Below, piece after piece: positions 7,289 through 20,448 of a stretch of DNA of 31,948 bases. Source of the DNA: a virus. The position numbers and the translations under genes are program-made. The stretch covers positions 1 through 31,948 of the IMG/VR virus record IMGVR_UViG_3300025085_000106; one strand, given 5' to 3'. The first letter of the stretch is position 1; each line of letters starts with the position of its first letter. The notes under the pieces are model-generated. The model did not search any database, was not told the origin of the DNA, and saw only the letters and a list, made by a program, of their open reading frames with translations.

Positions 7289-10210
7289 ATGGATCAGAAC
7301 GAATTACAATATACAATGAAAGCAGTCTACTCACAATATCCGTGGGCAGGTGAAGAAACCGCAGAACAGTTAGCCGGTTTAACAAGGTCAAACAGTATAA
7401 AAACTACGGCTTTGGCTACTGCTATTGTTAGATTGAACTCGGCTTCTGATGCTAAAGCATTGCTTAATAATATTAAAGAAACAGCAAACCAGCTTGATCA
7501 GTCGGTAATAGACGGCAGGGAGAAGTTGCAACAGGCAGACAAAAACATACGAAGGCTGGGCAGAGCATCATTATCCGGCAGTTCACAATCTGGACTCGAA
7601 TCAATGATCGAACTTGCTGGTGCAGGTGCTGAAGCAATGGATCATGCAGCAAGCTCTTTAGCATCAGCAGGTGGTAAAATAGGTAAAGTAGCAAGTGGAT
7701 TTTCTTGGGCAACAGGCGGTGCAGTTGCATTAACAGGTGTCGGCGCAGCCTTTGCCAAAATAATAACAACGCAAGAAAAAGATCTACGAACAATGATTGA
7801 TATGGGAATGGTATTAGGTAATACATCAGATTATACACACATGCGTGGTAATGCTGTTGCAGCCGGTATGTCATTAACAGATTATGCAGCAATGGTTCAG
7901 AATACATCAGAATTTTTAGTTAATATAGGACAGAACAATTTAGTATCAGGACAAGGATTGATGAGTAATTTTTTAACCGATGATAAGAAAATAAAAAGAG
8001 TTAAAAATTTTGGATATAGTCCAAAAGTGTTATCAGGCTTACTAGCAGAAGAATCAGAACAGTTGTATAAACTTAATCAAATTAATGAACTTAATGACGC
8101 TGATCAAACACGAGTTATAGACAGTTTTGAAGCAGCAAACTCTATGGGAATATATCTAGCTGATACATTGGGTGTGCAACGTAGTGCTTTATTAGAATCA
8201 AGAAAAATGATAAGAGAAGATGCAGACTTTCAATTAGCGATGCATCAAAATTCTGCATATTTAAATAAAACATATGGTGAGGGAGCAGCAAAGAAGGTTC
8301 AAGAATCAGCAGACTGGCTTGCTATGCTAGGCAATGCAACACTAGGCGAAACGATTACAAAAATGTTAACAGATACATTCACTGGCACAGTTTCAGACAT
8401 TCAGTATGATACTTCAGCGATTAATAATATACAAAATGAACAACTTGCAGCAATGCTACAACGACTTGATCCAGGAGTCTTTGAAGGCATGATGGACTTT
8501 TTATCTACTGGTGCACAAGGAAAAATTAATGGACCAGAAGAAAATGCTGCAAAATTTAGAGAAATACTATTACTTATAAAAAACTCTCCTACTCTATCAG
8601 GTATAGATCCCACAAGTATCGAAGTCAATAGATTAATAGCAAGCATGAATCTATTGCCAGAAGAATATTTCTCAGGCACCGAAGCAGAAATGAGAGCAAA
8701 GATGGAATCAGCAAGCGAGGCAATTGATGGAGCAGACGATTCAATTGAAATTCTTGGTGGACTAAGTAAAGCATTCTTAAAAGCTCAACATACCTTTACT
8801 CCAGGATTTGAAACAATGGGAACAGTGATGGGAGTGTTGGAAAGTTCAGTAGGAACATTTGCTGACTTCTGGAGAGATATATTTGGATTAGATCGCACGG
8901 CAGAAACTAGTATGGAACTAGCATTGGAAAAAGACAAAAAACATATTGGTCCAGGCGAGCGGTTCTATATAGATCATAATTATTCTGTTGGCGGATCAGC
9001 ACCGATTAAAACAAACACAGTTCCGGGGTATGATGATGAAAGTAACGCCATTGTAGACAAAGCGAATAAAGAAGCTGCATATAAAGAAATGATCAGTATT
9101 AGAACACTTATAAAAACTACACAAGATGAAATGTATATTGTAAGTAGCGATATAAAGAAAACAGGATATAAAACACTTGTTGACGAAGTAGCCAATATTG
9201 AAGCTAAGATTAAAACAGCATCAACTAAAGGTGAAGATATTTCTGGGCTTCAGTTAGAGTTAGTTAACGCACAGAAAAAACTTACAGAGGCCGAAGCTAT
9301 TGCACAACCATTAATAGATCAACGAGATATGCTTAAAGAAAGAATTGGGCATTTAGCATCGTATCAAGACCAATTGGGATCATATATTGGAGACAAGGGA
9401 AAAATAAGAAGAAATAGACTATCCGAGTATGAGCAAGGGTCTTCCTTACAAGGTATAGTTATAGCACAATTAAAAGAACAAGGAATTACTGACCCTGTCG
9501 CACAAGCAAATATATTAGGAATGATACAAGGCGAATCAGCATTTAGAGTGATAGAAGAACAATCATATGCAAAAACATCTAATATTAGAATTAGAGCAGC
9601 ACTGGGCAATCGTGTTAAAGGTTTAAATGATGATCAACTAGACAAATTGAAAAAAGATCCTAAGGCATTTTTTGATTATGTATATGGTGGTGACATGGGC
9701 AACGAAGGTGAAGGTTATAAGTATAGAGGACGAGGCTTTATACAATTAACAGGTAAAGAAAATTATAAACTTGTTGGAGAAATGATTGGTCAAGATTTAG
9801 TAGGTAATCCAGACTTGATGTTAGACCCAAATATTTCAGCGGCAGCAAGTGCTGCCTATTTTAATTTGCCTTGGTGGCAAGAATACAAGTCAGATTTAGG
9901 AAATATGGATACCGTGTATAGAGTTGTGTATGGAAAAACAGCAACAAGTTCTGGACGCACTGCTGATTTAAACCAGAGAACAGATTATGCAAATCAATTT
10001 TTAAATGCAATGAATACAGGGCAGATAACTGAAGCAAAACAAGTAACACCAGAAATACAAGCATTACAAACGCAAATTATAGATATACTAAAAATAGTAG
10101 AAGGCGACATTCCTTTAACAGAAGGCCAAGAAACTGAATTGGCAACACTAGAAGCACAACTGGCAGATGAAATGCGAAAGTTAAAAATAGAAATGAGCGG
10201 AGAACAATAA
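7289..10210 (+). CDS. Tape-measure-like tail protein with GH19 muralytic domain
   Basis: The 973-residue virion protein has an alpha-helical N-terminal part and an Ala/Gly-rich hydrophobic segment near residues 130-160 (GGAVALTGVGAAFAK). A coiled-coil-like stretch at about 600-690 is followed by a chitinase-like GH19 domain at about 715-885. The GH19 signature is clear: ILGMIQGESAF with catalytic-type Glu749, YRGRGFIQLTG at 812-822, then GNPDLMLDP. The domain would cut peptidoglycan during DNA entry. The N-terminus (PWAGEETAEQL) and the IDMG segment resemble those of the next gene, suggesting duplication. An AAAGGAAA ribosome site precedes the ATG and the next gene starts two bases after the stop. 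It is probably a tail-lumen or tail-tip protein. Confidence 0.75.
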   Translation: MDQNELQYTMKAVYSQYPWAGEETAEQLAGLTRSNSIKTTALATAIVRLNSASDAKALLNNIKETANQLDQSVIDGREKLQQADKNIRRLGRASLSGSSQSGLESMIELAGAGAEAMDHAASSLASAGGKIGKVASGFSWATGGAVALTGVGAAFAKIITTQEKDLRTMIDMGMVLGNTSDYTHMRGNAVAAGMSLTDYAAMVQNTSEFLVNIGQNNLVSGQGLMSNFLTDDKKIKRVKNFGYSPKVLSGLLAEESEQLYKLNQINELNDADQTRVIDSFEAANSMGIYLADTLGVQRSALLESRKMIREDADFQLAMHQNSAYLNKTYGEGAAKKVQESADWLAMLGNATLGETITKMLTDTFTGTVSDIQYDTSAINNIQNEQLAAMLQRLDPGVFEGMMDFLSTGAQGKINGPEENAAKFREILLLIKNSPTLSGIDPTSIEVNRLIASMNLLPEEYFSGTEAEMRAKMESASEAIDGADDSIEILGGLSKAFLKAQHTFTPGFETMGTVMGVLESSVGTFADFWRDIFGLDRTAETSMELALEKDKKHIGPGERFYIDHNYSVGGSAPIKTNTVPGYDDESNAIVDKANKEAAYKEMISIRTLIKTTQDEMYIVSSDIKKTGYKTLVDEVANIEAKIKTASTKGEDISGLQLELVNAQKKLTEAEAIAQPLIDQRDMLKERIGHLASYQDQLGSYIGDKGKIRRNRLSEYEQGSSLQGIVIAQLKEQGITDPVAQANILGMIQGESAFRVIEEQSYAKTSNIRIRAALGNRVKGLNDDQLDKLKKDPKAFFDYVYGGDMGNEGEGYKYRGRGFIQLTGKENYKLVGEMIGQDLVGNPDLMLDPNISAAASAAYFNLPWWQEYKSDLGNMDTVYRVVYGKTATSSGRTADLNQRTDYANQFLNAMNTGQITEAKQVTPEIQALQTQIIDILKIVEGDIPLTEGQETELATLEAQLADEMRKLKIEMSGEQ

Positions 10211-17581: not shown

Positions 17582-18742
17582 ATGTCAAACTTATTTGAAA
17601 ATTGGGACGTAACTAAAGGCGCCCTAACTGACGGTTTAGACGGCAATAAAAAGGTTGTTATGGAGTCAGTTCTTGAGAATACCAAGAGCTATCTTTCAGA
17701 ATCAGCAGCTGCCGGATCAACTATGTCAGGCAACATCGCAACATTAAACAAAGTAATTCTACCAGTAATCAGACGTGTAATGCCGACGGTTATTGCGAAC
17801 GAATTAGTTGGTGTTCAACCAATGACTGGTCCAGTAGGCCAGATCCACACTTTACGTATCCGTTATTCACAAGCAGCAGCAGGTGTTGCCGCTGGTGATG
17901 AAGCACTTAGCCCATTTGCAATTGCAAAAGGTTACTCAGGTGATGCGGCTACAGGTGGTCCATCTTCAACAAGCTCATTAGAAGCTGAAGCAGGACGTAA
18001 AATGTCAATTCAAGTGTTGAAACAAACAGTTGAAGCTAAAACACGTAAATTGTCAGCACGTTGGACTTTTGAAGCGGCACAAGATGCCAATTCAATGCAC
18101 GGTCTAGACGTAGAAGCAGAAATTATGCAAGCACTTGCACAAGAAATTACTGCTGAAATTGACCAAGAAGTTCTAACTTCATTACGCACACTGGCAGGCA
18201 CAGCTACTGACTCATATGATCAAGCAGCAGTATCAGGTCAAGCAACTTTCGTTGGTGACCAGCATGCCGCACTAGCAGTTCTTATTAACAGAGCAGCTAA
18301 CTTGATCGCAGCAAGAACACGTCGTGGCGCAGGTAACTACGTAGTTGTTTCACCAACTATGTTAACTGTTCTACAAAGTGCGACAACTTCAGCGTTCGCA
18401 AGAACAACTGAAGGTCCATTTGAAGCACCAACTAACACTAAATTTGTTGGAACTTTGAATAACACTGTTCGTGTATTTGTTGATCAATATGCATCAGATT
18501 CTACACCAGTTCTTGTTGGATATAAAGGTGAAGGCGAAATCGACGCAGCAGCGTTCTATTGCCCATACATCCCACTTATGTCTTCAGGCACAGTATTAGA
18601 CCCGGCAACTTTCGAGCCAACAGTGTCATTCATGACACGTTATGGTTATGTAGAGCTTAACAACCAAGCTTCATCTCTTGGTAACGCGGCTGACTACTTA
18701 GCGAAAATTGACGTTAATGCAGGTAACCTATCATTTAAGTAA
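17582..18742 (+). CDS. 23: Major capsid protein gp23
   Basis: The 386-residue protein has the T4 gp23 hallmarks: VILPVIRRVMPTVIANELVGVQPMTGPVGQIH, a RKLSARWTFEAAQD segment, the GNYVVVSPTMLTVLQS segment, and SFMTRYGYVEL near the C-terminus. It forms the hexameric lattice of the head. A likely gp21 cut lies after LSE at residue 40 (LSE/SAAAG), giving a mature protein of about 346 residues. It is clearly shorter than T4 gp23 (521), probably missing the insertion domain. An AAGGAG ribosome site precedes the start and a strong terminator follows. Confidence 0.95.
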   Translation: MSNLFENWDVTKGALTDGLDGNKKVVMESVLENTKSYLSESAAAGSTMSGNIATLNKVILPVIRRVMPTVIANELVGVQPMTGPVGQIHTLRIRYSQAAAGVAAGDEALSPFAIAKGYSGDAATGGPSSTSSLEAEAGRKMSIQVLKQTVEAKTRKLSARWTFEAAQDANSMHGLDVEAEIMQALAQEITAEIDQEVLTSLRTLAGTATDSYDQAAVSGQATFVGDQHAALAVLINRAANLIAARTRRGAGNYVVVSPTMLTVLQSATTSAFARTTEGPFEAPTNTKFVGTLNNTVRVFVDQYASDSTPVLVGYKGEGEIDAAAFYCPYIPLMSSGTVLDPATFEPTVSFMTRYGYVELNNQASSLGNAADYLAKIDVNAGNLSFK

Positions 18743-18765: not shown

Positions 18766-18797
18766 GAGCAGGTCCCTTTTAAGGGGCCTGTTCTTTT
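18766..18797 (+). terminator. Rho-independent terminator after gp23
   Basis: GAGCAGG and CCCTT pair with AAGGG and CCTGTTC to make a long GC-rich stem, followed by TTTT. It ends the head operon before the outer-membrane protein cassette. Confidence 0.8.
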
Positions 18798-18806
18798 GAT
18801 AAATAA
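18798..18806 (+). promoter_or_regulatory. Late-type promoter motif before the outer-membrane gene
   Basis: GATAAATAA starts directly after the terminator, upstream of the host-type promoter. It fits the late motif used before other virion genes and would give the cassette a second, late promoter. Confidence 0.4.
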
Positions 18807-18810
18807 AAAA

Positions 18811-18828
18811 GTCAACATTTCGGTTGAC
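18811..18828. promoter_or_regulatory. Inverted repeat overlapping the -35 box (possible operator)
   Basis: GTCAAC and GTTGAC form a perfect inverted repeat around ATTTCG. The right half overlaps TTGACA of the host-type promoter, so a bound dimer would block it. Confidence 0.4.
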
Positions 18829-18852
18829 AAGATTCACATATACACGTATAAT
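18824..18852 (+). promoter_or_regulatory. Perfect sigma70 consensus promoter of the outer-membrane gene
   Basis: TTGACA (18824-18829), exactly 17 bases, TATAAT (18847-18852). Transcription would begin near 18859, giving a leader of about 70 bases with a 7-base-pair hairpin (18894-18911) before the AGAGGGA ribosome site. The upstream CGGTTGAC matches the gp55 promoter. Confidence 0.85.
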
Positions 18853-18929
18853 TAAAAGTTACATTTGGTTATTGAGTTAACTAATGGATAGAAGCTGACT
18901 ACGAAGTTAGCATTTTAGAGGGAAAAAAT

Positions 18930-19739
18930 ATGAAAACAACAGTAAGCGTTTTGGCTATTCTGTTTGCAACATCAGTTGCAGCACAGGCCGAAACAACAAC
19001 AACCACAGTAGCGGCATCACCGGTTCTTCCGTTGACTACAACTATTGATGTTGATGTTTCTAAAAACTCAACAACTGGCAAGTATGTCAGTAACACAACA
19101 CTTAACCTTGACCTAGATTCAACTGGTCCAGCGTTTGGTGGGTTTGATCTTAAAATTACAGATGGCACAATTGCATTAGGTGATTGGCAGATCGGAACAG
19201 CAGTTGCAGGTGCAACAGTATCACTAGGTAAGCAAGGCGACTTGTTTCCATCAGCAGGACTAGAAGTAGTAGGTTCAACTACACTTGCTAATCCTACGGT
19301 AAACGAATCAGTGATGGCTAAAGCAGGTGGTCTTTCATTAATGGCCGGTTTTGACAGTTTATCAACTGACGTAACTGATCTTGATAACGTTCAGGCAGCA
19401 TACGACTTTAAAGTCGGTGTTATCGGAATGGGTGCAGCAATTGATTATAACACTGACACTAAAGCAAAATCTTATGGCGTAAGTTCATCACTTGACCTTA
19501 CATCAAGCATGTCAGTGGGTGGCACAGCAACATATTCTGCTGATAAGCTAGGATATGAATTAAATGCAAATGCTGGAGTAATTTCAGTGTTTGTTAACGG
19601 CGACGAAGATAATAAACTTCAACACGTTGGTGCAGGAGTTAAAAGTTCATTCAAGGGAATTGATCTTTATGCAGAAGCATCGTATGATACAGATGCAGAA
19701 AGTTTAACACCGGCAATCGGTGCATCATTTAAATTTTAA
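18930..19739 (+). CDS. Secreted outer-membrane beta-barrel (porin-like) protein
   Basis: The 269-residue protein has a clear Sec signal peptide (MKTTVSVLAILFATSVAAQA, predicted cut after residue 20). A body of alternating beta-strand segments rich in Gly, Ser, Thr and Val follows, and it ends in Phe (GASFKF), the usual signature for outer-membrane barrel insertion. No porin subfamily is recognised. It probably acts in the infected host's outer membrane, for example by changing permeability or blocking superinfecting phages; this is inference. It is flanked by terminators on both sides and has its own sigma70 promoter and an AGAGGGA ribosome site, so it behaves as an independently expressed accessory gene between capsid and fibre genes. 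A virion surface protein is possible but would not need a signal peptide. Confidence 0.7.
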   Translation: MKTTVSVLAILFATSVAAQAETTTTTVAASPVLPLTTTIDVDVSKNSTTGKYVSNTTLNLDLDSTGPAFGGFDLKITDGTIALGDWQIGTAVAGATVSLGKQGDLFPSAGLEVVGSTTLANPTVNESVMAKAGGLSLMAGFDSLSTDVTDLDNVQAAYDFKVGVIGMGAAIDYNTDTKAKSYGVSSSLDLTSSMSVGGTATYSADKLGYELNANAGVISVFVNGDEDNKLQHVGAGVKSSFKGIDLYAEASYDTDAESLTPAIGASFKF

Positions 19740-19766
19740 ATTAATTTAAAAATTATTGCAATAATT

Positions 19767-19790
19767 AAGGGCCTTAACGGGCCCTTTTTT
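19767..19790 (+). terminator. Rho-independent terminator after the outer-membrane gene
   Basis: AAGGGCC pairs with GGCCCTT around a 6-base loop, followed by six T residues (two of them also in the stem). It closes the accessory cassette 27 bases after its stop. Confidence 0.85.
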
Positions 19791-19818: not shown

Positions 19819-19827
19819 GATAAATAC
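19819..19827 (+). promoter_or_regulatory. Late-type promoter motif for the fibre module
   Basis: GATAAATAC, 33 bases before the start at 19861, follows the terminator of the outer-membrane gene. It probably drives the 19861, 20502 and 23636 genes, which have no other promoter-like motif between them. Confidence 0.6.
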
Positions 19828-19860: not shown

Positions 19861-20448
19861 ATGGCATCATATATAAAACCAGATAACGATCAATTAGTAA
19901 TTAAAAGTATTAAAGATCTTGATTTAAATGCTTTAAGTAGCACAGACTCTGCTCTGCATGTCGAAGGCGGCGCATGGGTTGGTGGAAGTTTATATATTGG
20001 AGGCACAATAGTTTCATCTGGTGATGTTATAACACTAGGAAACGCAAGTGGATCTGTAGCATTTAACAGCAACATATCAACTGACTTACTGCCAAGCGTT
20101 ACAAAAACACACGATATTGGTAGTAGTTCCAATATGTGGGATCAACTCAATATACAAACAGTTATTGTAAGCACAACAACTGAAACAACAGAAATTACAG
20201 CAAGCACATCATTATCAGCAATTGATGGTTCTACTGCGGTTGCTCTTGTTTTAGCAGATGGCACAGAAGGCCAACAAAAAATTATTACTGTATCAGATAC
20301 CCCATCAGGTCCTGCTACAGTTACTCCAACAAATGGAGCAGGTTTTACTTCAATCACTTTTACAGCAAAAGGCGATAGTGCAACATTAGTATTTGTAAAT
20401 GGCAGTTGGAACATTGTTTCGCACTTCCGTTCTAGCGTAAACGTTTAA
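19861..20448 (+). CDS. Virion structural / short tail fibre-like protein
   Basis: The 195-residue protein starts MASYIKPDNDQLVIKSIKDL. It contains GSLYIGGTIVSSGDVITLGN and HDIGSSSNMWDQLNIQ, a version of the DLGSxxxxWxxL element also present in the last gene of the window (YDLGSTTKKWRDLFLSQG). This element is common in phage fibre and receptor-binding proteins. The C-terminal half is beta-rich and Thr/Ser-rich with no known enzyme motif. AAGGAAG lies before the ATG and a late-type motif lies upstream. It is first in the fibre module and most likely a fibre or decoration component. Confidence 0.6.
   Translation: MASYIKPDNDQLVIKSIKDLDLNALSSTDSALHVEGGAWVGGSLYIGGTIVSSGDVITLGNASGSVAFNSNISTDLLPSVTKTHDIGSSSNMWDQLNIQTVIVSTTTETTEITASTSLSAIDGSTAVALVLADGTEGQQKIITVSDTPSGPATVTPTNGAGFTSITFTAKGDSATLVFVNGSWNIVSHFRSSVNV

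Follow-up and report, generated by a model that had tools for sequence, protein, structure and literature searches.

The gene between the major capsid gene (gp23) and a fibre-like structural gene of a T4-like phage is probably a moron-like early cassette, whose product (OMP269) would be an exported, porin-like outer-membrane protein that alters passage across the host envelope. The window, that is, the whole 31,948-nucleotide stretch analyzed, comprises positions 1 to 31,948 of IMG/VR virus record IMGVR_UViG_3300025085_000106. Strong Pfam matches for gp23, gp20, and the S77 prohead protease identified the window as a stretch of a T4-like myovirus. The nearest named records of gp23 were those of large myophages (Phosso, 70% identity; Vibrio phage 2.275.O, 68%; PA5oct, 67.5%; GAP32 and CBB, 64.5%). 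The gene order is that of CBB, with a gp55-like sigma factor, a gp47/46-like pair, the portal, the protease, a coiled protein, and gp23, followed by fibres. From the end of gp23 (18742) to the start of the next structural gene (19861), the OMP269 gene is the only gene. Elsewhere in the window, a 973-aa protein (7289-10210), whose C-terminal part resembles an endolysin (PHROG 181, residues 726-928), adjoins virion genes.

Cassette anatomy and promoter class

The sequence-only reading had described a gp23 terminator, a TTGACA-N17-TATAAT promoter, a signal-peptide protein with a terminal Phe, and a second terminator, and had likened this layout to that of a moron. All of these elements were found in the sequence (Table 1). 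The gp23 terminator was partly picked up by the program listing at 18774-18786, and in the alignment of relatives, its hairpin lay at the same place with an altered loop. With its own conserved promoter and its own terminator both present, the predicted status of the cassette as an independent transcription unit is supported.

The perfect promoter consensus was also borne out. Twenty promoter-like sites were listed in 16-22 kb, and this was the only one to match at 12/12. When the whole window was shuffled by dinucleotides, a 12/12 site (spacer 16-18, either strand) arose in 20 of 400 shuffles (mean 0.0575); a perfect promoter is therefore expected by chance in about 5% of such windows, and perfection alone is not decisive. 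Across eight homologous upstream sequences, none of the 12 hexamer columns varied, compared with 10 of the 17 spacer columns (Fisher p 0.0012), and the 17-base spacer length was kept in all eight. The invariance of the hexamers beside a varying spacer suggests that the promoter is under selection as a sigma-70 site. An inverted repeat overlapping the -35 element had been missed by the earlier reading. Its arms were retained in most relatives, with one position altered in L090/L093 and in L092 (L numbers denote loci), and the changes in L090 and L092 kept G-U pairing on the + strand only. This repeat may serve as an operator, or it may terminate leftward transcription. No Pho-box-like control element was seen by eye in the cassette promoter.

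All seven distinct 5′ leaders folded into two hairpins ahead of an exposed Shine-Dalgarno sequence (folding z -1.7 to -4.4). Hairpin 1 could not be aligned, and its support is the like folding of these leaders. For hairpin 2, the covariation score was reached by 26 of 500 shuffles, which is suggestive and of modest strength. The leader of E. coli ompA is an analogue in which hairpins stabilize the mRNA, and the two hairpins of the cassette may act likewise.

The gene that follows the cassette has a late promoter: in 33 of 38 loci, ATAAATA stood 30-63 bases ahead of the fibre-like gene, and the remaining five had CTAAATAC. In the window, GATAAATA also directly preceded three other genes, which start at 7213 (minus strand), 12956, and 25346; six copies were present versus 2.19 expected, a number reached in 4 of 100 shuffles, so the apparent enrichment over chance is modest. 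The copy at 18798, upstream of the cassette, had likewise been missed by the earlier reading, and it is probably not essential because only three of the eight aligned upstream sequences contain it. Thus, the cassette has no conserved upstream ATAAATA of the kind that marks T4-type late genes, whereas the sigma-70 promoter was present in all eight sequences. For CBB, a near relative, early genes were reported to have RpoD-type promoters, and late structural genes ATAAATA (PMC5259590). Together with this scheme and the gp55-like sigma factor, the contrast between the sigma-70 promoter and the late promoter of the downstream fibre-like gene suggests that the cassette belongs to a host/early promoter class inside a late module. 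Its predicted expression by host RNA polymerase is well supported and would probably be early; late read-through or a second start via the 18798 GATAAATA is possible in this phage. Of the claim that a host-type promoter drives strong early expression, the promoter itself held up, being selected and of another type than the late one before the fibre-like gene, and the early timing is deduced from the promoter class.

Table 1. Locations of the cassette elements, its neighbors, and comparison features (window positions unless a locus is named)
Feature	Location	Strand	Evidence or remark
gp55-like late sigma factor	816..1700	+	46% identity to CBB_244 "sigma factor for late transcription", E 2e-76
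gp23 major capsid gene, left slot border	17582..18742	+	PF07068 E 6.9e-100; PHROG 138
gp23 intrinsic terminator	18769..18797	+	hairpin CAGGTCCC/GGGGCCTG (18769-18790) and T-rich tail; sequence
GATAAATA, late-promoter-like, upstream of cassette	18798..18805	+	in 3/8 aligned upstream sequences
Inverted repeat GTCAAC-N6-GTTGAC	18811..18828	.	overlaps -35; next to run of A; sequence
Sigma-70 promoter	18824..18852	+	TTGACA (18824-18829), 17 nt, TATAAT (18847-18852); 12/12 match
Leader hairpin 1	18865..18884	+	hairpin kept in 7/7 leaders though sequence differs greatly among relatives
Leader hairpin 2	18889..18917	+	core GCUGACU/AGUUAGC; 49/49 cells paired; one compensatory pair
Shine-Dalgarno-like AGAGGGA	18917..18923	+	sequence
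OMP269, 269-aa predicted outer-membrane-type protein	18930..19739	+	starts MKTTVSVLAILFATSVAAQA, ends ASFKF
Sec signal peptide of OMP269	18930..18989	+	sequence; conserved in relatives
Cassette terminator	19767..19786	+	8-pair stem and T tail
Late promoter GATAAATA of fibre-like gene	19819..19826	+	motif
Conserved fibre-like structural gene, 195 aa, right slot border	19861..20448	+	
OMP338, second porin-like phage family	L083:5785-6798; L096-L114		
manA RNA, examples	L012:3131-3335; L013:7302-7508; L130:6692-6896; L139:6690-6895		
GOLLD RNA	L132:6309-6769; L146:6445-6905; L145		192 bits (gathering 150), tRNA match inside; L145 by similarity

OMP269 and its relatives

The mature OMP269 has approximately 249 residues, no Cys, and a terminal Phe, with cleavage by signal peptidase I presumed at AQA/E from the AxA rule. 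Every complete member of the family ends in an aromatic residue (F). Read by eye, the protein thus combines a Sec signal peptide with a C-terminal aromatic residue, as outer-membrane barrels do. The alternation of hydrophobicity was scored with a home-made measure, which gave z 5.7 for the OMP269 of the window and z 4.2-6.0 for four family members, compared with z 1.6-1.9 for OmpF, OmpC, and OmpX; none of 11 negatives exceeded 3.0, the value of a PKD-bearing fibre. This score is crude, since it places the phage protein above true porins. In Pfam, OMP269 weakly matched YfaZ (E 0.08; 13 bits against a gathering cut-off of 23 bits), and two of eight family members weakly matched DcaP (E 0.0018; 17.7 against 27 bits); a further weak match was to NspA (E 0.026). 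All of these weak matches were to outer-membrane proteins and none exceeded a curated cut-off, with some made by just one or two members. A profile search of the PDB with OMP269 gave no match, and NspA was not confirmed.

AlphaFold models of OMP269 had pLDDT values of 33.6 (single sequence) and 32.9 (8-member alignment). Foldseek searches of PDB and BFVD with the low-confidence model returned nothing below E 0.001, and barrels (LptD, R. blastica porin, VDAC) were mixed in the list with propellers and others. Residues 96-127 form the most conserved stretch of the protein, and this conservation would suit a pore-lining loop. The signal peptide, the C-terminus, the strand alternation, and the weak outer-membrane family matches suggest that OMP269 is likely an outer-membrane barrel. 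Of the earlier claim of a phage-made barrel, Sec export and the outer-membrane features were upheld, and with models at pLDDT ~33, the barrel itself is a prediction, as is the outer-membrane location.

The earlier reading had also proposed a homology search against host porins and phage proteins. A tblastn search with OMP269, run against 50,697 phage and 72,556 plasmid records, found nothing, NCBIfam gave no match, and PHROG gave insignificant matches only. No bacterial relatives were detected in two scans of 84,980 genomes, which required short conserved stretches and could have missed distant porins. The homology search thus returned no relative among phage records and, among cellular families, only the weak outer-membrane matches given above. 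The OMP269 family appears to be new, as judged by searches that very distant relatives would escape. Word searches of open-licence literature found no paper on OMP269 or on a gp23-fibre cargo slot.

Within the family, dN/dS values of 0.11-0.39 (21 pairs) were obtained for OMP269, compared with 0.05-0.10 for gp23 (six pairs with the window), which points to purifying selection on the OMP269 gene overall. The L004 and L091 alleles were 98-100% identical in codons 1-90 and 69-90% identical beyond, and those of L091 and L092 were 97-100% identical over codons 91-210 and 72-93% identical elsewhere. The alleles are therefore mosaic, suggesting that parts have been swapped between phages.

Contents of the gp23-fibre slot

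The slot was surveyed at one locus per contig in 42 contigs with both borders (the window and 41 others). As expected for moron-like presence and absence at a single site, OMP269 was found in 10 of the 42 slots, 11 had a gap of less than 200 bp, and the rest had other contents. All 10 contigs whose gp23 was at least 95.5% identical to that of the window carried OMP269, and none did below this value, indicating fixation within one clade and not a scattered distribution. Among the other contents, a PiT-like transporter occurred in 5/42 slots, four of which also had a manA RNA; manA without the PiT-like gene occurred in 10/42 and GOLLD RNA in 3/42. Single slots held a 133-aa signal-peptide protein (L119), an HNH-type gene with a tRNA (L128), or leftward unknown genes (L010). 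In the cultured relative PA5oct, a homing endonuclease lies between the capsid and fibre genes, and CBB has a T5orf172 gene there.

The manA RNA lay just upstream of the fibre gene in 14/42 slots, often with a sigma-70-like promoter; manA was counted by similarity to a copy confirmed by Rfam, and some copies fall below Rfam's own threshold. Glutamine riboswitches were also seen in the slot (L121:6309-6418, L125:6311-6420, L139:6406-6455, and L129:5636-5685), arranged as tandem pairs in L121, L125, L126, and L127. The PiT-like cargo (L011:1401-2357, L121:3096-4058) appeared to be a diverged phosphate transporter; this assignment came from a phmmer match to 6l85 (E 0.0023), and no Pfam match was obtained at E 0.001. 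The 133-aa protein of L119 (3367-3768) has a signal peptide near-identical to that of OMP269 and a different body ending in TFSW. When it was considered as a remnant of OMP269, the match was confined to the signal peptide.

Cargo next to gp23 was also found in contigs without the fibre border. L009 carried a PstS-family protein, and in L007 (5002-6727), a metallophosphoesterase (LpxH-like) and a GT4 glycosyltransferase directly followed gp23. We take the L007 pair to resemble, possibly, PlcP/Agt of phosphate-saving lipid remodelling. OMP269 and phosphate genes never occurred in one slot among the loci examined. In 24 chosen slots, near-consensus sigma-70 sites (10-11/12) were present before manA, GOLLD, and some PiT-like cargo. 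A 10/12 site was often matched by shuffles, and a 12/12 site was found only for OMP269; the L119, L011, L010, and L007 slots had no sigma-70 site above chance. GOLLD RNA is the subject of PMC12286853.

Candidate functions and known systems

In the explanation that we favor, the cassette is cargo in a variable gp23-fibre slot that belongs to a clade of marine, jumbo-type T4-like phages. Host RNA polymerase would read it from its own sigma-70 promoter, probably early, and the leader hairpins could stabilize the mRNA. OMP269 would be exported by Sec and lose its signal peptide to signal peptidase I, and the host BAM machinery would then place it in the outer membrane, where it would form a small porin-like beta-barrel; we infer the insertion, the barrel, and the pore function from sequence features. 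The likeliest gain would be changed passage across the host envelope during infection, that is, uptake of solutes or nutrients. Nutrient uptake is the first choice because phosphate-uptake-type cargo (the PstS family and PiT-like genes) follows gp23 in other members; for OMP269, the putative phosphate link consists solely of this company at the slot.

The main rival, which we rate as possible and on the unlikely side, is that the same early outer-membrane protein excludes superinfection, with receptor masking or mimicry, or remodelling of the surface, blocking later adsorption or injection. Early expression and a surface location, both predicted, would suit this role, as would the envelope-related genes of relatives at this position (the L007 glycosyltransferase and metallophosphoesterase). 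The mosaic alleles also fit, but mosaicism can likewise arise from ordinary phage recombination. OMP269 matched no PADLOC model at E 1, and the gene is under apparent purifying selection, with a most conserved stretch that resembles a functional core and not a variable exposed loop.

In another reading, which is improbable, OMP269 forms no outer-membrane barrel and is instead a beta-rich protein that is secreted, stays in the periplasm, or decorates the virion. The lack of a confident structure and the virion genes on both flanks are consistent with this reading, whereas the signal peptide, the terminal F of all complete members, and the restriction of weak matches to outer-membrane families argue for a barrel; in addition, the alternation of OMP269 exceeds that of all negatives, beta-rich fibres included. 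The signal peptide and a promoter that is not of the late type led us to discard the virion-gene reading. The least probable of the readings is a late or lysis-related outer-membrane pore of the kind proposed for CsgG of Melnitz and the pelagimyophages; phage outer-membrane pores with a proposed lysis role have been published (PMC9004378). The GATAAATA motif upstream of the cassette in the window and the TAAATAC-type motifs seen by eye upstream of the unrelated OMP338 would agree with late action, but the late-type motif is far less conserved before the cassette than the sigma-70 promoter is.

Beyond the favored explanation of a nutrient-passage protein, we tentatively propose that the gp23-fibre interval is a standard slot in the late module, often occupied by units with sigma-70-like promoters (phage-only outer-membrane proteins, phosphate-uptake genes, manA, and GOLLD). 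OMP269 would then be a phage-invented channel or surface protein without a known cellular counterpart, whose alleles are reshuffled to match hosts or exclude rivals. If the favored explanation is right, these phages would use a family absent from the searched collections to remodel the host outer membrane as soon as infection starts. The shared slot would offer a simple location in which to search uncultured marine phages for envelope, phosphate, and RNA cargo, and it would allow a direct test of whether large RNAs (GOLLD, manA) serve like protein morons.

Morons are autonomous extra genes of phages, such as Lom and Bor of lambda and the Lc porin gene of phage PA-2. Like them, the cassette is an additional gene flanked by conserved ones; it has a promoter and a terminator of its own, its product is predicted to be envelope-directed, and relatives lack it at the same site. 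Unlike Lom, Bor, and Lc, OMP269 occurs in a virulent-type T4-like jumbo lineage and not in a lambdoid prophage. By the searches made, which started from the OMP269 family, that family is unrelated to the moron examples. The similarity to YfaZ, DcaP, and NspA is weak and local, not full-length.

A second porin-like phage family, OMP338, resembles OMP269 in having a signal peptide, a terminal KYKF, and strand alternation (z 3.5). The family belongs to a different gp23 clade (gp23 just ~74-75% identical), where 18 of 20 loci have it directly after gp23, 117-288 bp away, and its upstream motif is late-type, not sigma-70. In L113, OMP338 lies after genes that we take to be ribonucleotide-reductase-like. 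Searches of Pfam, PHROG, and phage records gave no notable match for OMP338, and common descent with OMP269 was rejected (hhalign probability 1.4%, no sequence similarity).

Marine T4-like phages also carry, by its description, a cyanophage outer membrane protein-like beta barrel domain (PF24653, Phage_OMP), which none of eight OMP269 members matched at E 10. The CsgG/CsgF proteins of the pelagimyophages and Melnitz provide an outer-membrane channel encoded by marine myophages; they differ from OMP269 and are sited between the replication and structural modules (PMC7029224, PMC9004378). The view that such a protein is unusual among T4-like structural genes therefore applies to this family, which had no phage-record match, and not to phage outer-membrane proteins in general, which are known from Phage_OMP, pelagimyophage CsgG, and OMP338. 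Autonomous cargo genes whose products are outer-membrane proteins are a kind already known.
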